Assembly (NCBI GenBank): GCA_950295325.1 | Contig: OX485808.1 | Location: forward strand, 9,054,501 to 9,118,500 | Origin: Polytrichum commune | Lineage: Eukaryota > Streptophyta > Polytrichopsida > Polytrichales > Polytrichaceae | Length of the DNA: 64,000 bases | Reading direction: 5' to 3' | Shown here: piece after piece, positions 7,011 through 37,719 of the stretch | Layout: each line of letters begins with the position of its first letter | Position numbering within the stretch: the first letter of the stretch is position 1 | Translations under genes and position numbers: made by a program | The notes under the pieces: generated by a model | Database searches by the model: none | Seen by the model: the letters and a program-made list of their open reading frames with translations, nothing else | What the model was told of the DNA's origin: nothing

Positions 7011-8140
7011 CTTCCCACCCACCACTTGGACGGCCGAGAGGCTTCGTACGAGCTTCAACACATAAGTTAGAAAACTACTCGAGGGCCAAGAGTCATGGTG
7101 ACTTGGACATGCACTAGGAGGAAGTAGCTTCAAATAGTAGGGCCAAGTGGAGGCAACTCCCTTTATAACGTCTTAGTGGCCGCACATTCATAAAGATGCC
7201 CCGGTGAGGGCCCACCCGAGCATGGGAATGTCGGACCTTACTTACTCCTACTTGTGCTTTAGAACCAAATGCGAATCACACCATGGAATGTGGCATAAAT
7301 TGAATAATAGTATTAATATTTTTATTAATCTTAGTATTAGTATTGTAAAAATAATATTAATTTATCATTTAAGAGGATCAACCGTGAAGGTCACTCGGCT
7401 AGGAAATTTTTTGAAGCCACTTGCAAATTTTTGCACAAAAGGGAAAGTGAGAAACCGAAAATAAAATATTCTCAAAAAATAACACCTTGGGAGGAACACA
7501 AAATGTTTGGTTTGTGGTACTATATAGCACCGGAAGTATCTTGTCCATGGTGCACTTTTGAATTGTTCATTCGGTACCACATGGAGTAGCGTTTACTTTC
7601 ATATTGTACCCCCCGAAGAAGGAAAAACGGTGCCCTTGAACCACTAATTTCTACTCCGGTTATGCATCGGTGATTTGCTATTCTACAAAATTGGATCGTT
7701 TGTGATTATTATGAGTTTTGTGAACGATGTTGCTAGAATTATCCCTTAAAATCATTAAAATTGAATGAAGTCGCCAACTTTTGGATGGATGTGTATGAAT
7801 TTTGATGAAATTTTGTATACTCATCCATGTATTGTGTGTGATGTCTGACCTTATTAGAAAATGAAGCCATCAAGTTTCTTGCCACAAAGAGGGGTCCATG
7901 TGATCACTCAAAGAGAGAAAGAACAATTTCACTTCAACCTCCTACAACTCTTTGTCTCAACTATGTTCTCAACTCCGTTTTAAAGCTCATAATAACAAAT
8001 GGCATAGCCCGCAATTTCTACATAACATTACACAACTCAATGACCCCGTTCCATTCTACATAATGAAATGCCTTCATCATTGTCAAAGTTTCTCAGGCTG
8101 AACATGTTGGGTGAGGCATGTGGGAGGTACATCTCAAACT
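7011..8140. other. Left flank of the Plavaka element, no gene recognised
   Basis: No coding motif was seen. A segment around 7500-7640 ('gtaccacatgga', then 'cgtttactttcatat' and 'tgtacccc') resembles 13985-14120 on the other side of the Plavaka element, in the same orientation. It may be a repeat that the element landed beside or between. Confidence 0.4.
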
Positions 8141-8160
8141 CTCACATGCTAAAATTCAAT

Positions 8161-8197
8161 GCCATGTCAATCACCAATTGAATTGGCATTGAGTTGA
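8161..8197 (+). repeat. Left terminal/subterminal inverted repeat of the Plavaka element
   Basis: It starts GCCATGTCAATC and ends GCATTGAGTTGA. It pairs imperfectly (about 25 of 37) with the reverse complement of 13684-13720. A related motif, 'caatgccaactcaatcgaca', recurs at about 8247-8266. Confidence 0.55.
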
Positions 8198-8280
8198 GGT
8201 TTGGAAGGTACAATAAATTCCATTGCATTAACACATCTATACTCAATGCCAACTCAATCGACAACAAAATTAGCATTGAA

Positions 8281-8315
8281 TTATTCATCCATTGATTCGA
8301 TACTATAAACACACT
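8281..8315 (+). repeat. Left subterminal inverted block
   Basis: It matches the reverse complement of 13642-13676 at about 28 of 35 positions, including the shared 'gtaaacacact'/'ataaacacact' end. Such inner repeats are common transposase-binding sites in CACTA-type elements; that role is inferred. Confidence 0.6.
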
Positions 8316-8535
8316 ATAAAAATTGGAATTTGAAATAATAGATGATTGAGTCAATATTAAACTTTCCAGCCATTGATTTGGTGTTGTGAACATATTGGAT
8401 TTTTTTGAAATATTATGAAACAATACTAAGTTGACACAAAATATACTAAGAAATATTCAATGCAAACTTAGCATCTACTCAACAACAGTAAGAGTGCAGA
8501 CTAGGCTATGCATCTTCCTCAAAACTTAAAGGAGT

Positions 8536-9342
8536 TTATAAAAAAGAGCCTTCCTTGCTAAAATTCGGAAGCACATGAATGGCTCTAAGAATATTTTGAA
8601 CATCAAGAATCATGTAAGATTCACACTTTCCTACGTTACTCTTGTTCCTTGCTTTACTAATTTGAGACTTAGTTTTAGGCCAGATGAGTTGGGAACATTC
8701 AACTAGCCTACTAAGTTGAGTGGTAGGAACTTCTTCATACATTCTAAGAAATGCTAAATCTTTAACAACTCGATTTTGGACTTCATCTTCAAAAGACACT
8801 TTGAAAATCAATCGAAGTTGACCATAATAGGTCAATTCAGCCTCACCAGGTGCCTCCATCTGAATGGCAACACTGCTGAACCATGGTGAACCAAAAAATT
8901 TGCTTGTTGCTCGTACATATTGTGGCATGCTACCAAAGCGGTCACCAGGATCGGCAGGGATGGCGATAGAAGTGAAAACATGAAGCACCTGTTCATGTCA
9001 AGAAATTAATCATCACCCAAACATGGATCATCCTAATAAAAGAAAATTTTAATTAGCAAAAATTGCAAACTAAATACTTCAATTATAGCAAAGCTACATA
9101 TAATAACATTGAACCAGTGTAAAGCATACCTCTCCACCTGTGAAATTGTTTTCAACTTTGAAGGTATTAAAAGTTTCATAGAAATTGGTTTGTAGCTCTG
9201 GTTGCCCATGAATGAGATTCTGAGCACTGCTGGATACAAAAAGTTGCGTGGACTCAAATGAAAATCCAAAAGCTGGATCCAACCATGAACTCTGCAAGTT
9301 GACTTTTGCTCCCCATAAAACATTCAAACCTGATTCCACAGC
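8536..9342 (-). other. Exons 12-13: C-terminal domain
   Basis: Exon 12 (9342-9130, 71 codons) precedes exon 13 (8988-8536, 150 codons and TAA). Exon 13 contains RFGSMPQYVRATSKF, then VAIQMEAPGEAELTYYGQLR, then LIFKVSF. Plavaka proteins end in a beta-rich domain with a 'VRAxP' then 'VRVxF' pattern (I recall this as DUF6830), which this resembles. Its function is not known to me. No lesion was found in these exons. Confidence 0.75.
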
Positions 9343-9498
9343 CTTCAAACCCACAATATATTAAATAAATACTAGTCAAATTTGGAAACCACTCTAGCTT
9401 TTATAATAACAAATGCCACACTTTAGCCAACTTCAGAAACAAGACCAATAATGACTTTATGAACAATGATAGAATAAACCATATGATTGAAAACTTAC

Positions 9499-10300
9499 TT
9501 GGTCTAGTGAAGTATATTTCTCTTTCTCTCTAGAGTTATCAAGCCCCTCCATAGTGTCTTGCATCTTCCGTAAGGCAACAAGTCTTTGATTATGTCGGGC
9601 AATTTGAGGAGTAGCTTGCCTCTTATTGCTACTTCTGTATCCAGCCTTCATCAAAGTTGTATGCATTTGTTCATACATATTGGTACTATACTCCCATGGA
9701 AGTCCAGATCGGCGGATACAATCATTAAAATGTGACATGGCATGAATTTTCACTGTGTTAAATCCTGATTTTTGCCATTTCAACATGGCTCTCTTCATAG
9801 CTTGTACAGACCTGATTAGCCAAAGACATTTGAAGATTATCAATTTGTTACTAAAAAATTAAAACACCTAGAACTTAATTCCATTAAACCTCAATTCCGT
9901 AAAAATGGCCTTCCATGTGCCATTTGGAAGAGCATATGTGCAATTTTGGCATCCGTTGAGAAACATTGTACCTTGAAAAACCTCCCAAAACCTTATAATT
10001 TTATTGACTTTTCGTACCCCAAAACGCGCCATTTTGGCATTATAAAGCCGTTTCAACGGAATTGAGTATATTTCTTACAATCAAATTGTTTCATTTCTAA
10101 AAAGAACTAAATTGCTAACAATATGACATGACCATAGCAAAAAAAACCAAAACATACCTTATCATAAGCTCATCCATTTTGGCCAATGAATCTTGTGTGT
10201 GTTTTGGACTACGAGTAGCAACCTTGTACCATTGTAGAAACAATACAAAGGCTCTAATGACATCATCTTTGTAGATCCCGACAAGGCACAAAACAATCAC
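9499..10300 (-). other. Exons 10-11: helical domain and YRSSNKR motif
   Basis: Exon 10 (10300-10158) starts VIVLCLVGIYKDDVIRA and ends MIR across a split codon. Exon 11 (9811-9499) contains KIHAMSHFNDCIRRSG, YSTNMYEQMHTTLMKAGY and RSSNKR. The family block 'H...IR..G...YST...E..H...(A/K)xYRxSNKR' is one of its most diagnostic parts and is intact here. The intron between these exons is the longest in the gene because of an insertion (9890-10066). Confidence 0.8.
9890..10066. mobile_element. 177-bp MITE-like insertion in transposase intron 10
   Basis: It is bounded by perfect 11-bp inverted repeats: CTCAATTCCGT at 9890-9900 and its complement at 10056-10066. It contains a second inverted pair ('aaaatggcc'/'cgccatttt'). 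It lies wholly inside the 346-base intron, and removing it leaves about 169 bases, in line with the other introns. It is less AT-rich than the surrounding intron. No clear target-site duplication was found. Confidence 0.55.
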
Positions 10301-10411
10301 CTGAAAATGATACAACAATAACAAAAACTTCAATACCAAAATGATATTCACTAACAAAACTTTTAGAAAGATGTTCGAAGTCCATGAAGGTAGTAAAAAA
10401 CAAAAGCAAAC

Positions 10412-11667
10412 CTGCATAATTGCTCGATGCTCAAACCCTGCAAAGTTTGCATTTGATCCAAAGTATCCCCCCTTATCAGTTCCTGGAATCCTGGAAAAAT
10501 AATAAATAAAAGTATCAATTAACAAACAACCAAACAATTATCATGTTTTTTAATTGAAAACAATTTATTCAAAATCACACATTTTCTACAAAAAAAACAT
10601 GCAAATATGTCAGATTAATAAATTCAAGATAAAACAAACTTTAAATTAGGAAAATTCTAAGTAAATTAATGATATTTCACCCAAATAATTCTAGGGATAT
10701 GAAATAAACACCTAAAATGAGCATAACGGGCCTCCTTTTTTATGACAAGTAGGCGTTGATCAAGCTCTTTGATTGCCTTTGAGTGCATAATATCACCATC
10801 ACTTGCCATAGATCTCAAAATTCCTATAAGCATCTTGAATATACCAACATCTGTTTGATGGAGAACATCAACTTGAATGGCCAAGTAAGGATTGCCAAAC
10901 TCAGTGTTTCCACCATTGAATCCCCAAAGAGCACACTACAATAAAACAAAGGAACTTATTTAGACCAAAATAGTCAAAGTACCATATTGGAAGTACCAAA
11001 TCCATTGGAGAAAACATTGAATTATTTGAACACTTACAGGGATTGGATGCAATGACCATTGTTTGGAGAGGGCAGCCACATCTTTCTTATCTGTTGTTTC
11101 CATCATGGCTTCGTACACCTCTTGCATATTTTTCTCTGTGCGTACTGAATTTTTTTGATGAACATCTCGTAAAGAATCCTTTCCACACAAGCAGATGCTA
11201 CAAGAAAATTGACATTTGTTTGTATCAAATGTGCAACTTACCTGCAAAGATTCTCAATTATTATCAACTTTATATAAAAAATAATAATATCATACAAATA
11301 ATTTAGAGTTACAATCTGAAATTTCAAACTATCAACATAATTAAACAATGAGAATAAACTTACTTTACAACCTTCGGGATGGTCACAAATGTACGAGTAG
11401 AGGAGTGGATAAACCCATTGTGCTACACCATGTGGGTCCACAAGTCGAAGTCCACTAATTATTCAGACAACAAAGAAAACTTATAAATTATCATTTCATA
11501 GGACAAAGAAAAGAAAAGAAAATAATTATACTGAAATTATACTGAAAATAAAAAAAATAGTCAATACCTAAAGCTTGCTTGTTTTAAAGGCTCCATAATG
11601 CAAGCAAGACATTCTTGTAAGACTTCTAACTTGCGTGCAGAAAAATCCACCTCTGATATTGAAGCAC
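10412..11667 (-). other. Exons 5-9: central catalytic core
   Basis: Exon 5 (11667-11568) has ECLACIMEPLKQASF. Exon 6 (11454-11364) has DPHGVAQWVYPLL and YICDHPEGCK. Exon 7 (11241-11038) has CSICLC, a Cys cluster. Exon 8 (10935-10712) has CALWGFNGG and VDVLHQTDVGIFK. Exon 9 (10490-10412) has FEHRAIMQ. These correspond in order to the family's conserved blocks: 'EPL', 'DYPEQC' with CxxC, 'DxLHQxxxGxFK' and 'G(A/R)EHxxMQ'. The Asp and Glu residues in them are candidate metal ligands. All four internal splice junctions restore the frame. Confidence 0.8.
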
Positions 11668-11792
11668 CTGTATTATTTTTCAATCATGAATTCAAACTTT
11701 GGTTATGGAATTTAGAACTTCCTCTAGCTTTATCAACTACAATAGTAATATTCATACCAAGTAAACAAATTTTGGTGCAAATAAGAACTTAC

Positions 11793-12282
11793 TTGAAGTT
11801 AAGATCGGCAATATTGCAAGGAGAGTATGGCCTTGCGGAAGGGTCGGTTTTCACAAGCAACATTTCCTAAAGACATCATCAAAGGATACCCATGGACTCT
11901 TCTATCATTGGATAATGTGGTTTGGTCACTAAAGAAAATTAGAGGTGCAATAACAGCTCCATCGCAGTTCACATGTTCCTGCTAACACAAAAGTTTCAAA
12001 TTCGTGACAAGATTTAGATTCACTTGCATAAAAATCCAACTTAGAGTTTGAGACAAAAAAAAAAATTAAACAATCAAATTGGTCACATACCTCCATGGAA
12101 TTCCACCACAAGCCAGTGTCAGGAGTTGATATTGCTTCTGACAAGCAAGAATGCAACTTGAAATTGTCAGCATTTGCTGGGTTAGAAAAAATCTCTGTGA
12201 GAGCCTCCACTGGGTCCTTGTAATACATCACTACTTCATGGAGGTCGTATGGAGCACAAAGTACTTGATGCTTCAGCCAACC
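11793..12282 (-). other. Exons 3-4: start of the catalytic core, with frameshift
   Basis: Exon 3 (12282-12091, 64 codons) contains YYKDPVEALTEIFSNP and NADNF. Exon 4 (11978-11793) contains DGAVIAPLIFFSDQTTLS and GYPLMMSLGNVACENRPFRK. The S-D-x-T-x-L motif followed by a 'LxxxLGN' stretch is the usual start of the Plavaka nuclease core, and its Asp is a candidate catalytic acid. After GCCATA, the run CTCTC holds two extra bases. Read on, the frame hits TAA; two bases fewer gives LAILPILTS, which joins exon 5 in phase. Confidence 0.75.
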
Positions 12283-12468
12283 CTGAAACCATACAAGACT
12301 AGTGTACTTAAGAAATCAAGTATCACACACATAAAAAGCTCACACGAGAAAGGTACCATACTAACAATTCTACCTACACTATACATATTAATTACTCACG
12401 CTTCAATGCATGTGATAAAGACATTGCTTTGAAATAAAACAATTTGAAAATTAGTTAAATAAACTTAC

Positions 12469-12915
12469 TTGCTCGCCTTTGTATAGATCATCTTCAAAGT
12501 GCTCAACATCACGCACATTCCTCAAGGAGATTGAATTCAAGTCAAAGGAAGGATGAAATAGCATCTTCAACAGGGAATCAATATGTTGTTGAGATAAACC
12601 TAAATTGTTTCGACAAGTTCTAATAAAATGAATTAGATGTGTCGTTGAGTCATATGCTTTCTTCGGGTGGTCCTGAAGCCTTTCAAATCCTGATAATTCT
12701 AGGCCAAGCTCTAGCATTAAACTTGTATTTGATGGTTGCATTCCAATGGTCCCAGTGACATGGGGAGTTGAACAAGGTTGGGCACCGGGGCAAAGGACTG
12801 TAGGGCAAGATTGGGCATCAAAACTATCAGCTGAAGGTAGATGAATAGATGCAACCTGCCTTGAAGAAGAGACACGAGTGGATTGATCAACACCATCTGG
12901 AATCACATGCAAATA
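12469..12915 (-). other. Exon 2: polar linker region of the transposase
   Basis: One hundred and forty-nine codons, phase 0 on both sides, starting YLHVIPDGVDQ. The first 60 or so residues are Ser/Pro/Cys-rich and look disordered. The second half (IHFIRTCRNNLGLSQQHIDSLLKMLFHP) reads as helical. This part of the family is poorly conserved, so no function is assigned beyond linking the finger to the core. Confidence 0.65.
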
Positions 12916-13030
12916 CTGAAAAAATATTTGGTTAGATTGAATGTATTATTGAATAATATTGTTGCATAACCGGTATTCTCTGTATTATTGACTAATAAAC
13001 TAATACACAAATGAGAATGTCTTAACTTAC

Positions 13031-13168
13031 TTGCAAAGGTCGACTTTTGGCTGACAAAGCTGCAATGCCACATTTTGTTGAGGCTTGATGTATTCGAAGA
13101 GCCCTTTCACTTCAAAACTTGGACGCACCACATGTCAGGCAAGTTAAATCTAGCTTTGGCTTTGACAT
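13031..13168 (-). other. Exon 1: N-terminal zinc finger of the transposase
   Basis: Forty-six codons in phase 0. Cys10, Cys13, His27 and Cys33 form C-x2-C-x13-H-x5-C, with the CLTCGASKF / RALRIHQASTKCG pattern. Plavaka and related fungal transposases start with a similar C2H2/C2HC finger, thought to bind the element ends. Codon 19 is TGA (13112-13114 on the plus strand), between the two halves of the finger. A single C-to-T change from CGA (Arg) would explain it; that ancestry is inferred. Confidence 0.75.
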
Positions 13169-13171
13169 CTC

Positions 13172-13641
13172 CTGCATTATAAAAATAAATTCAAACAAAT
13201 TAGCAAATTGAAGAACGAACCACAATATAAAAGATATTTAAAGACATTATAGGTTTTTGGAGCCTTTTGTAACATTTATGATTTGACTCATTTATTCAAT
13301 TTTTACCAAATTTATGGTTGATGCAAGATTCTCAAAATAATTTAATTAATTGAAAATTCAATCATATATTTCAATGTTGAGATTATATATTTGGATTGTA
13401 ATTGTATTGGTACTTATATAATATTTGTTGGCTGTGATTGAAATAATATCGAATTTGAACTTTAATAAAAATGTCAAAGTTGATACTATGTTAATATTTG
13501 GTATTTATTTTAATTTCTAATTATTAGTTGTAATAATAAGAAATAAATGGATGAAGAGTTTAGTATTATTTTAATTATCTTTTGTTTCAAATTTGATTTT
13601 TAAATTGTATTTATAGTATTAACTCAATAGTCAAATGTTTC
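13172..13641 (-). other. Leader or promoter region of the transposase, nothing definite
   Basis: Very AT-rich DNA between the first recognised exon and the right inverted repeat. It should hold the promoter and perhaps a 5'-UTR exon, but no TATA box or splice pair can be singled out with confidence. Confidence 0.4.
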
Positions 13642-13720
13642 AGTGTGTTTACAGTGTTAAATCAATTGTTGAATACCTCAGTACTAACTCAGTCGACAAT
13701 CAAGTTGATATTGAGTTGGC
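13642..13720 (-). repeat. Right terminal and subterminal inverted repeats of the Plavaka element
   Basis: 13684-13720 (outer) and 13642-13676 (inner) are the reverse-complement partners of 8161-8197 and 8281-8315. They sit about 470-550 bases upstream of the first recognised exon, as expected for the 5' end of the element. Confidence 0.6.
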
Positions 13721-13740
13721 GCTAAAAAAGCACACCCCAA

Positions 13741-15089
13741 TAATCCAAATGAAATAGTACTCAAAAATTACCATTTTAGTGTTGATTTTGACACTTTGGA
13801 AGTTTGTGATGTACATAACTTCATGGACCTCATCTAACACGTTCTCGGCCCTGCCCCACCTCCCTCTTCAGCTGTGTAACATTACGTGGATGAAATACGA
13901 AACAATTCCTAGGGCGCGATTCCAACAGTGGAAAGTATATGTGGAGTCAAAAGTGCACACAAAGGAGGGCCACATACATGTTACAATACCTCACCTGGAG
14001 AAGTAGGTACGACTTGGAAATATCATGTGACCATACCGCATCGTTGCGGAATCTTTTTGGTTCGTAGTACCACATGGACACTCGCGACGTTTACTTTCAT
14101 ATCATAGTGTACCCTAAACCTTGGGTCTTATAAAAACTTAATGGTCCATATCACTCCCCCTTTTTAGACAAGCGGTGTGGTTGTGTACGTAGTAGTATGA
14201 TTGACTCTTATTTACCGGAAAGTATGTTTTTGTCTCATTGGTGTGCTCAAGGCTTTGAACGACCACTTCAATCAAGTTCCATTTCATCGCACATGAAGTG
14301 AGCAAGCGAGCACGGGTGGATGTCAAGTGTGTGTTAGTTATATATACATAATTTTAATGAATTGTATTGTTGTTTTTCAATGAGGGTGGATTTTCACTTC
14401 ACTTTGGGGGAATGTGGAACCCATGATTCGGGAGGCCGGAGCGAGGGCGCATGGAGATGGAGATATTATTGTTAAATGACGCAAGCACTATTCTACTAGC
14501 GGTAGTACTAGCTACTATCTCCCCCTTTTATCGCTCCTTGTTGTAAGGCACCAACGGGAGAAGGAAATGGGGTACTTGAATCCGAGAACGAAATGGCACT
14601 CTCCTATTCGCCGTCGGTTCATGTCATAACCAAGCGGTGACAAAGGGGGAGTCATTGCTTGCCGATAGTTTTATGTTTGAACCGACATGTGGAAATTTTT
14701 ATTTTTATTATCTTTTATTATTATTATTTTCATGTAGAAAGTAGGACCTTGATCGGCACCATTTAGGGTGTGTTCCACTACATTAAATAGGATGATTATA
14801 TTTAGTGTTGTTACCACCCTATCTTGCTCAACACTCGTTTTCAATTCTTTGACAATTAGTGCTAGACATAAATGTGCTGCTACTTTCCCTATTGCCACCT
14901 CAGTATTTTTTATTTCTTCATATCTTTATTAATACTAAATTCAAACATGGAACTTCCACATATTACCATAGTTGATATTTAGTGTTTGAGTTTACGTTAA
15001 TGTTACTTACTTTCATAGGGTTATTGACATTTGGTGTATGCGTTTGTATTTCGCGTATCAAACACTAAATATTAGATTTAGCGTAGTGG
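13741..15089. other. Right flank of the Plavaka element, no gene recognised
   Basis: Contains the 13985-14120 segment resembling 7500-7640. An A/T-rich stretch near 14690-14740 and degenerate 'ACACTAAAT...ATTTAGTGT' motifs (14795-14810, 15060-15085) resemble the ends of the element at 16553. No coding motif was seen. Confidence 0.4.
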
Positions 15090-24891: not shown

Positions 24892-26084
24892 TAAGTTGGG
24901 ATGAATTCACGTGGAATCCATCCATAAACCTATATGGAGTACGTTTTTAAAGAACACCCTTACATGAGTGGCATATATCTTGAGCCATTTTATTGTCAAA
25001 CCTAAACATGTTGTGGTCCAAACACACCGCAGAACAACTGCACACGGGGAAATCTCCATTTATACCTGCGAGACAGGTCAACATCCCAAAACCAAGAACA
25101 TCCAAGGAGCGGAAAGCGGTTACAATGATCTGAATTATAATCAAGTAGTGGAGTAGTGCGGGGTTAGCTTGGTGAACATAAAGGTTGTCGCTCATGTGAA
25201 CATTGATGGGGGAAGCATATATTTACATTTGAATAAGGTCTTATCTAGGGTATTTGACAAGGGACCATTTTTTCTTGAAGGGCACATGCCTGGTGACTTA
25301 GGTGATGATGGTCACCACCAAAACCAGTTTCGAGATATACCTCCAATTGCTTCAAATGATGATATATCTTGTAGATCTTGCTCATAGAATATCATTTCCA
25401 CTTTGTAGAGCTTTTCAATATCTCTCTACTCACACAATGAGTGTCCCTTAGCCATGTGGGCATGGCCATTCAAACATCGATTCCTAGTCATGTTGATTTT
25501 TGATATATTTTGTCGCCCCTCCAATCTTTGTACTTGGGAAGTAAGATTGAGCTCTTTGGATTGCATCCTCAATATCTCACATTTTGCCATCGTACCCATA
25601 ACTAGAAGTGAAAGTACGAGAATATAGTGGGTGTTTGAATCTTCAAGAGTTGTTGTGTTGTTGAGGCAAATGCCACCACAACTGCCCCATCACTTTATGA
25701 AAGTGCTCTAAATTTGGGGCTTGGAGGGTGTATGTGGTCATGGAAAGAAGAGGAGAACCTTAACTTTGACCTCCTATGACTACTGCATCTCAACTTCAGT
25801 TATAAAACTTGAAATGACAATCTCCATGATTCAAGATTACTAACTAATTGAGACAATCTCCAATTTTACACAATGAATCAGAATTGTTTGTGACGTTGGA
25901 AGGGCCCATCTACAAAAGGTAAATCGATAAAATTCAATTGTTGATCTTATTTGGACACATGTATTTAAGTGGTGGGTGGTTAGGCCATATTTAACAACGG
26001 ACATAAAAAAACCATGCGTTGAAAAGAGTTTGGTCTAGTGCTTCAAGTTTGTTAAACATCCTAAGCTTAATAGAGTTATTTGTA
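24892..26084. other. No gene recognised
   Basis: Several open stretches of 60-80 codons occur on both strands (24947-25195 minus, 24968-25387 plus). None has a recognisable domain or supporting splice sites. No transposon ends were seen. Confidence 0.4.
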
Positions 26085-36440: not shown

Positions 36441-36524
36441 AAAAGTAGCCAAACAACACCCTCACACCTTAAAGGTAGATGGGATGTTCAATTTGTCTAA
36501 ATAATCCAATTTTGCTAGGATATG

Positions 36525-36815
36525 AAACACGCAAGTAGTCCAAATTGAGGTTGTCACCACTTTCGCCATACTGATCAAAACTCGCATGCATGTCTTATTC
36601 ATTATCAAAGTGAAGATTTGGGTGCTCGTTAAATAGTCACGTAGTCCCCCCCTCCCCACCCTAATTATGTTGACTATGAAACCTAGAATGATTATCATAT
36701 TTCGAACATGCAACCATATCTCTTTTAAACACACACACATATATATGTTTGGTGTCCGTTCTTGGATCCATTCCCAAACCACATACCACTCAAATATAGG
36801 TGTCCAAATAAGGGT
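36525..36815 (+). repeat. Dispersed repeat R3, copy 7
   Basis: Near-complete copy: 'aattgaggttgtcacc', 'catgtcttattcattatc', 'gaagatttgggtgctcgtt', 'aaatagtcacgtag', a 7-base C run at 36646-36652, 'ggtgtccgttcttggatcc', 'accacataccactcaaat' and 'aggtgtcc'. The minus strand is open for 157 codons across it, but no domain is recognisable. Confidence 0.6.
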
Positions 36816-37719
36816 TGTCTTACTTACTTTAGTACCATGCAGCTTTGACGATGATTCATTCACTGAAAAGTGGGAACGCCATATGTCGGAAAATGATCGA
36901 TTGGAACATTTGAATAAGTTGACATGGCACAACAAAAAGGTGACAAATCAAGGCCTCAACGTTCAATGTATCGTTGTTGAATGTGAGGCCATGGTACAAA
37001 TGATAACATTCAATGTTTCCGAGTTGTTGATCGAAGTGGAGCACTTGATGATCGATTTTGTTCATGTCCAATAATGGTGTGAGAAACATTGGGTTGGTAT
37101 CATGTCTAGGATGTACCTCGTGTGCTATTTTGACCATTGATAACCTAGGCAACCCTTATTTCGTTACTTTTCTTATTCGAACATCCATGTTCCGAGAGTG
37201 GATTGTGGATGGTGTAGTTCCCCAAAAAAAACATGTTCTAAAAGAGATTATATGTCCAATTGAAATCGGACAATGCTCGACTATCCCTATCTCCAGAGGT
37301 AGTAGATTATGCTAATTCTGCTCTTATGATGCTGTTGAAAATGAGGCACACTTTGTGTTAGAGTGTCCCCAGAGTGTCCTCTATATAACCCCATCAAAAG
37401 TAGGCTTCCATCACTATTTTGGAATGTACTATTAGAACACCTCAAATTTCCTTTCAATCGTATCATCGAATTAACATGAGTCTCTATCTCATGGACGCTA
37501 TCGCACATGAGAAAAGTGACTACGGCCTTGATGTTGGATATGCTAACTATCTTGTACAAATCGCATGCATCATATCCTAAGAAAATCGGGTTAGTCGAAA
37601 TAAGGTGCCATTTAAGGACCCCCCCCCCAACCCAAATACTTCACTGACTTGTACACTGCCTAAACCTCAATAAATGCATATGTGGGTTCAAATAATTGTG
37701 AGTGATTGAGCATCACTAA
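36816..37719. other. No gene recognised; 10-base poly-C
   Basis: Open stretches of 80-130 codons overlap on both strands without any recognisable motif. A C run lies at 37619-37628. Confidence 0.4.

Follow-up and report, generated by a model that had tools for sequence, protein, structure and literature searches.

A degenerate Plavaka-type transposon with a 13-exon transposase, probably derived from a two-gene element, in a moss-like plant genome

We analyzed a window of 64,000 nucleotides (contig OX485808.1, positions 9,054,501 to 9,118,500 of the forward strand) and found that the feature at 8130-13811 is very probably what is left of a two-gene Plavaka-type DNA transposon with PlavakaB-like ends in a moss-like plant: a copy that is immobile and has an internal deletion. 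The element belongs to the CACTA/Mirage/Chapaev/Transib clade. The window copy alone is ordinary transposon debris; what is new is that a PlavakaB-like form rich in introns and with two genes occurs in a land plant. An original prediction, made from the sequence of the region, had placed a Plavaka-type transposon at 8140-13740. The place was right and the element proved slightly larger, from 8130 to 13811, with TA at 8128-8129 and 13812-13813.

Results showed that 13 minus-strand exons, running from 13168 down to 8536, are separated by 12 GT-AG introns of 102-346 nt each and sum to 2,783 nt once spliced. In the Pfam search, the product halves before and after a frameshift matched PF18759 (Plavaka) at 1.1e-11 and 3.4e-20, both passing the curated cut-off, and no other family was found for either half at E<=1. 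Matches of this strength exclude a chance origin of the motif series, and the window gene is therefore a real Plavaka transposase gene, as had been predicted. A search of PDB with the transposase core gave no match up to E=10. The features of the gene are as follows.

8536-13168, minus strand: 13-exon Plavaka transposase pseudogene, whole span (exon table and Pfam)
13031-13168, minus strand: exon 1, CxxC...HxxxxC zinc-finger-like region, with a premature stop in the window copy
12469-12915, minus strand: exon 2
12091-12282, minus strand: exon 3
11793-11978, minus strand: exon 4, SDQTTL (first catalytic D), with a one-base frameshift in the window copy
11568-11667, minus strand: exon 5
11364-11454, minus strand: exon 6, CDHPEGC (proposed second catalytic D)
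11038-11241, minus strand: exon 7, C(2)C motif
10712-10935, minus strand: exon 8, DVLHQTDVGIFK
10412-10490, minus strand: exon 9, EHRAIMQ; the preceding intron 8 is private to family A
10158-10300, minus strand: exon 10
9499-9811, minus strand: exon 11, H(3)H and proposed catalytic E, YRSSNKR
9130-9342, minus strand: exon 12
8536-8988, minus strand: exon 13, conserved C-terminal domain

The motif series named in the prediction is present in the expected order in the spliced translation: zinc-finger residues, SDQTTL, DHPEGC with CxxC, DVLHQTDVGIFK, EHRAIMQ and YRSSNKR. The order of D (exon 4), D (exon 6), C(2)C (exon 7) and H(3)H with E (exon 11) was read directly from this translation, the catalytic residues being assigned by motif order and not by structure. 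The 20-residue spacing from H to E presumably matches that of RAG1. In exon 1, the zinc-finger-like residues C-x2-C...H-x4-C are open in a sister copy, whose exon 1 gave weak matches to Pfam zinc fingers, all below the cut-off (best 0.035); the proposed zinc finger thus holds for its residues and not at the level of a Pfam domain. For the clade, the published motif order is D, D, C(2)C, H(3-4)H and E, with the cysteine and histidine motifs between the second D and E (PMC12730594).

A probe of one conserved transposase exon detected at least 15 loci in the genome searched, of which seven large contigs make up 406.1 of 407.8 Mb. These loci fall into four families: A (four, including the window), B (six), C (four) and D (one). 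The three further family A sites (C1:24190470-24201864, C3:21582680-21589826 and C3:38644362-38668857; about 96-99% identity by segment) hold the sister copies of the window element, named C1, C3a and C3b. Their alignment stops at 8130 and 13811, i.e., at CATCTCAAAC and GTTTGTGATG, delimiting the following features.

8130-13811, minus strand: Plavaka-type DNA transposon copy (family A), internally deleted, 5,682 bp, with ends set by the alignment limits with three sister copies
8128-8129, no strand: left 2-bp target site duplication, TA
13812-13813, no strand: right 2-bp target site duplication, TA
8130-8139, plus strand: left terminal inverted repeat, CATCTCAAAC
13802-13811, minus strand: right terminal inverted repeat, GTTTGTGATG
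8241-8340, plus strand: left arm of an imperfect subterminal inverted repeat, 70% over 100 nt
13617-13716, minus strand: right arm of the imperfect subterminal inverted repeat
13225-13236, no strand: A/T-rich junction of the internal deletion removing the second gene (at least 2.9 kb in sisters)

Within family A, the window copy and C3b are flanked by TA, and C3a by A runs (AA or longer). Paralogous empty sites were also found: when the window flanks were joined, they aligned across the junction at two of five flank-related sites, L025 (186 columns, 4.3e-28 joined vs 3.8e-25 for the left flank alone) and L027 (144 columns, 2.1e-19 vs 2.3e-15), while at L028, L029 and L030 the joined-flank alignment does not reach across. 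Terminal inverted repeats, target duplication and empty sites together bear out the prediction that the feature is a transposon. The flanks themselves (8020-8129 and 13814-13890) are a diverged repeat family, about 75-83% alike elsewhere, that was host of the insertion.

Published PlavakaB elements have ends CATCA..TGATG with 2- or 3-bp duplications, and PlavakaA elements have ends TGT..ACA (PMC12730594). Family A ends read CATCTC...GTGATG, the right one fitting the PlavakaB TGATG and the left one differing at base 5 from CATCA, and those of families B and C read CATCTC...GAGATG, keeping CATC/GATG with a fifth base that is mostly not that of PlavakaB. The exact start of six B copies is CATCTCGATTT, and four C-type left ends start with CATCTCAAATTT. 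Right ends of families B and C were located in four of the six right flanks examined, those of L009 and L013 not being found in theirs: the B elements finish with AAATCGAGATG and have the duplications TG, TA and TG (3/3), and the C element L014 finishes with TTTGAGATG and has the duplication TC. Considering both the CATC/GATG ends and the 2-bp duplications, the elements can be called PlavakaB-like, although most of their ends differ from PlavakaB in the fifth base.

Two arrangements were also observed around these ends. The left 339 bp of a C element abut a B left end exactly (L011 1696-2034; C4 at about 54503196-54503534), which suggests that at L011 a B element was inserted into a C element. 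Copy C3b lies between two occurrences, inverted and 92% alike, of a 363-bp sequence, one immediately beyond the left end of the copy and the other some 170 bp past its right end (L004 92-453 and the end of L006; C3b joined coordinates 25139-25501).

The window copy is dead. Its in-frame stop in exon 1 and its one-base frameshift in exon 4 are both absent from the sister copies holding those exons (2/2 in each case), and a one-base length difference near the end of exon 13, which changes the C-terminus, is absent from all three sisters. The prediction of 13 exons with consistent sites and phases was right about exons and introns, but the frame is broken at these three places. Moreover, at about 13225-13236 the window copy skips sequence present in all three sister copies. 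The extra interior amounts to 4,047 bp in copy C1, or 2,908 bp without a nested 1,139-bp piece that recurs at C1:71455048 (99%), and about 0.8 kb of further interior sequence is common to C3a and C3b. The original prediction had missed that the copy is dead and internally deleted, and that complete elements have a second, divergent gene. As both ends are kept and both functions are lost, the window copy would be mobile only with proteins from another copy.

The sisters are also damaged: exons 1 and 8 of C1 carry insertions; in C3a exons 1-6 are missing along with part of exon 7, and the second gene contains a stop; and C3b shows several insertions together with one-base gaps in exons 3 and 8. 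All four family A copies thus look broken, and by comparison with the divergence between families they appear young. With its many introns, the transposase resembles an ordinary plant gene, as would a host gene domesticated from a Plavaka transposase; however, four near-identical copies at different sites with clean ends and a target duplication, together with the stop and frameshift in the window copy, make domestication extremely improbable.

The interior of the sister copies holds a multi-exon plus-strand gene pointing away from the transposase. Exons of this second gene are related between families, with amino-acid identities to family A of 46-47% over 253-254 codons in C, 36-44% over 66-130 codons in B and 39% over 71 codons in D. 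Probing with one exon gave 15 places, three beside A, three beside C, five beside B and four without a listed transposase nearby; the D locus showed weaker matches (2e-7 and 0.002). Of the 14 transposase loci outside the window, 12, drawn from all four families, have the second gene beside them, and the two genes are divergent in 12/12; among the listed matches it is missing at C4:54505763 and C3:43434947. The probed exons of the two genes lie about 3-19 kb apart, several with nested insertions. The region C2:36.76-36.78 Mb (L016), counted as one locus of the 12, spans 18.8 kb and has transposase exons 3-6 about 2 kb from the second gene. The four matches without a listed Plavaka transposase nearby (C7:35471162, C1:2598994, C3:15671447 and C1:63229458) are of family B type and are either deletion derivatives or free-standing genes.

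Silent-site change between families is saturated (proportions 0.77-0.85 in the transposase and 0.75-0.85 in the second gene), while replacement proportions are 0.26-0.34 and 0.36-0.45; these figures represent an upper view of constraint, the blast-chosen alignments favoring conserved stretches. As replacement is far below silent change, both genes were under constraint when the families diverged.

Several candidates for the second gene were rejected. The fungal-type family DUF6532 (PF20149), which the gene seemed to resemble, was not among the Pfam matches of the spliced exons up to E=10, and a genome profile search for PF20149 gave no match at E<=0.1, a search that warns of not showing absence. 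No Pfam match to the CACTA TnpA family (PF03004) was found. In the extra interior of C3a, searched in six frames at E<=0.1, TET/JBP cargo had no Pfam match and the sole match was a weak one to Arfaptin, below the cut-off; exon b of the second gene gave chance-level matches in PDB (best 0.52).

The second gene might be a passenger, i.e., a captured host gene with no part in the transposition machinery. Transposons do capture genes such as TET/JBP (PMC12730594), neither Pfam, NCBIfam nor PDB gives the second gene a role, and four of its matches have no listed transposase nearby, which makes captured cargo a serious rival. On the contrary, each of the four families has relatives of the second gene, placed divergently in the same way, with 36-47% amino-acid identity and saturated silent change. 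The shared arrangement and the saturation fit long joint inheritance better than recent capture, and we therefore consider cargo rather unlikely. By analogy with TnpA, the second protein would most simply be an accessory factor. We put forward, as a tentative proposal to which we give a little less than an even chance, that the Plavaka elements of land plants are an ancient lineage with two genes, the many-intron transposase standing head-to-head with an undescribed accessory protein, a counterpart of TnpA outside its recognized family, the two being co-inherited since before the four families split.

Several observations weigh against the reading of the feature as a copy of a two-gene element. 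Among the eight elements with both ends read, seven have identical 2-bp flanks (A 3/4, B 3/3, C 1/1), copy C1 of family A being without target duplication, and the right end of L014 was selected from three possible sites, in part because its flank matched, so that a stricter count is 6/7. The second protein has no convincing match in Pfam, NCBIfam or PDB, and therefore its helper role rests on linkage and conservation. In addition, no subterminal motif common to the families, to which the second protein might bind, was found: CAATG, chosen after inspection of the ends, shows an enrichment (250-bp ends, 2000 shuffles) that is strong only in C (0/2000 shuffles), weak and on the left side only in A (23/2000) and absent in B (424/2000).

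An ordinary CACTA/EnSpm element misread as Plavaka would belong to the same clade, its CA..TG ends resemble the CATC ends found here, and plant CACTA elements also hold a second gene, TnpA (PMC8195511). However, the transposase matches PF18759 and not PF02992, the CACTA transposase domain, and the second gene has no match to PF02992 or PF03004. The PF02992 set of this genome is a different and far more abundant one (150 scored of 643 candidates), none of the eight TnpA-type PF03004 matches in the whole genome coincides with the 15 second-gene places, and the ends are CATC..GATG with 2-bp duplications instead of CAC..GTG with 3 bp. Such a misreading is therefore very unlikely.

We also compared introns between families, using exon matches mapped in 11 loci that belong to B, C and D, with three places read by eye; the comparison, confined to the four families, covers introns 2-12 in B, 3-12 in C and 2-9 in D. 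Family B has introns 3, 5, 6, 7, 9, 10, 11 and 12 and is without 2, 4 and 8; family C has 3, 4, 5, 6, 7, 9, 10, 11 and 12, with no single locus holding all of them, and is without 8; family D has 2, 4, 7 and 9 and is without 3, 5, 6 and 8. Ten of the 11 compared positions are common to family A and another family, intron 8 being private to A. Intron 4 of L016 is present on reading the sequence, displaced in the alignment, where the automatic scan reported none. The positions shared with the distant family D indicate that a many-intron transposase gene is ancestral here, and judging from these patterns later intron losses and perhaps one gain may have followed in this lineage, the change at introns 3, 5 and 6 being readable in either direction. 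In agreement with the long residence that had been predicted, four diverged families share intron positions, at least within this genome.

The number of introns was also predicted to be unusual and to reflect an intron-rich host. The first part is fair by comparison with 64 plant CACTA transposases, in which the number of exons ranges from one to six (up to eleven are cited for maize), against 13 in family A, and in which intron loss prevailed (PMC4158355). An intron-rich host alone is no explanation: the best PF02992 rows of the same genome read through almost all of the domain without leaving a single open frame, and many of the PF02992 domains lie in single long open frames; therefore the twelve introns are a property of the lineage and not just of its host.

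The host is a land plant by its LEAFY family (PF01698), in agreement with the plant-like genome that had been proposed. Four matches were found, with the SAM domain at C1:40569930, C7:8639033, C1:62297762 and C7:14030880. The DNA-binding part of one of them matched 4bhk best in PDB (5.9e-90), then 2vy1 (6e-81), 9fwy, 9g19 and 8s8q; we take 4bhk to be from the moss Physcomitrium and 2vy1 from Arabidopsis, and this ranking suggests a moss-like plant, with about seven chromosomes judging from the large contigs, although another bryophyte is possible. Since Plavaka is best described in fungi, a recent acquisition from a fungus or a fungal contamination of the assembly has to be considered. On the contrary, the contig that contains the window is 44.7 Mb long and belongs to an assembly in which LEAFY genes occur, copies are found on C1, C3 and C6 with relatives on C1 to C6, and the families have diverged to saturated silent sites yet share introns. 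A recent fungal source or contamination thus has only a slight chance of being correct; an ancient transfer from a fungus is possible. Elsewhere in the window long frames are scarce, the sole stop-to-stop frame of at least 150 aa outside the transposase being at 36462-36947 on the minus strand.

In the literature searched, Plavaka is described almost only from fungi; the green-lineage mention found was that of the alga Auxenochlorella, and none was found for mosses or other bryophytes among the papers listed. Fungal PlavakaB elements (PMC12730594) share with those described here the Plavaka transposase, the CATC...GATG ends, the 2-bp duplications (published as 2 or 3) and the motif order. They differ in that the left ends of the moss elements are CATCTC, compared to the published CATCA, and that the moss elements have a 13-exon transposase and a divergent second gene without recognized domain, where the published ones may carry TET/JBP instead. 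The EnSpm-Plavaka of the green alga Auxenochlorella (PMC12636532) also counts among the Plavaka-type cut-and-paste elements and likewise has a host of the green lineage. CACTA (En/Spm) elements of plants, which have TnpD and TnpA (PMC8195511, PMC4158355), are alike in their broad clade and in combining a transposase with a second protein, and their introns were also lost and sometimes gained over time (PMC4158355). Unlike them, the moss Plavaka genes match neither PF02992 nor PF03004, and they are divergent, whereas maize CACTA transcripts are overlapping and alternatively spliced (PMC8195511).

In the mechanism that we propose, the RNase H-like DDE transposase of a complete element would cut at the CATC/GATG ends, and the cut element would then be inserted into 2-bp targets. 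DDE transposases of the CACTA/Mirage/Chapaev/Transib clade cut at CA..TG ends and insert at short targets. Like TnpA in CACTA elements, the second protein would probably have a helper role at the ends, either as a DNA-binding protein or as a regulator.

If this reading is true, Plavaka would be an established part of a land-plant genome, with four diverged families, PlavakaB-like ends, many introns and a conserved second gene. It would also represent a second, apparently independent two-protein system in the CACTA/Transib clade, and its families would provide a natural set for following intron loss and gain inside a transposon.

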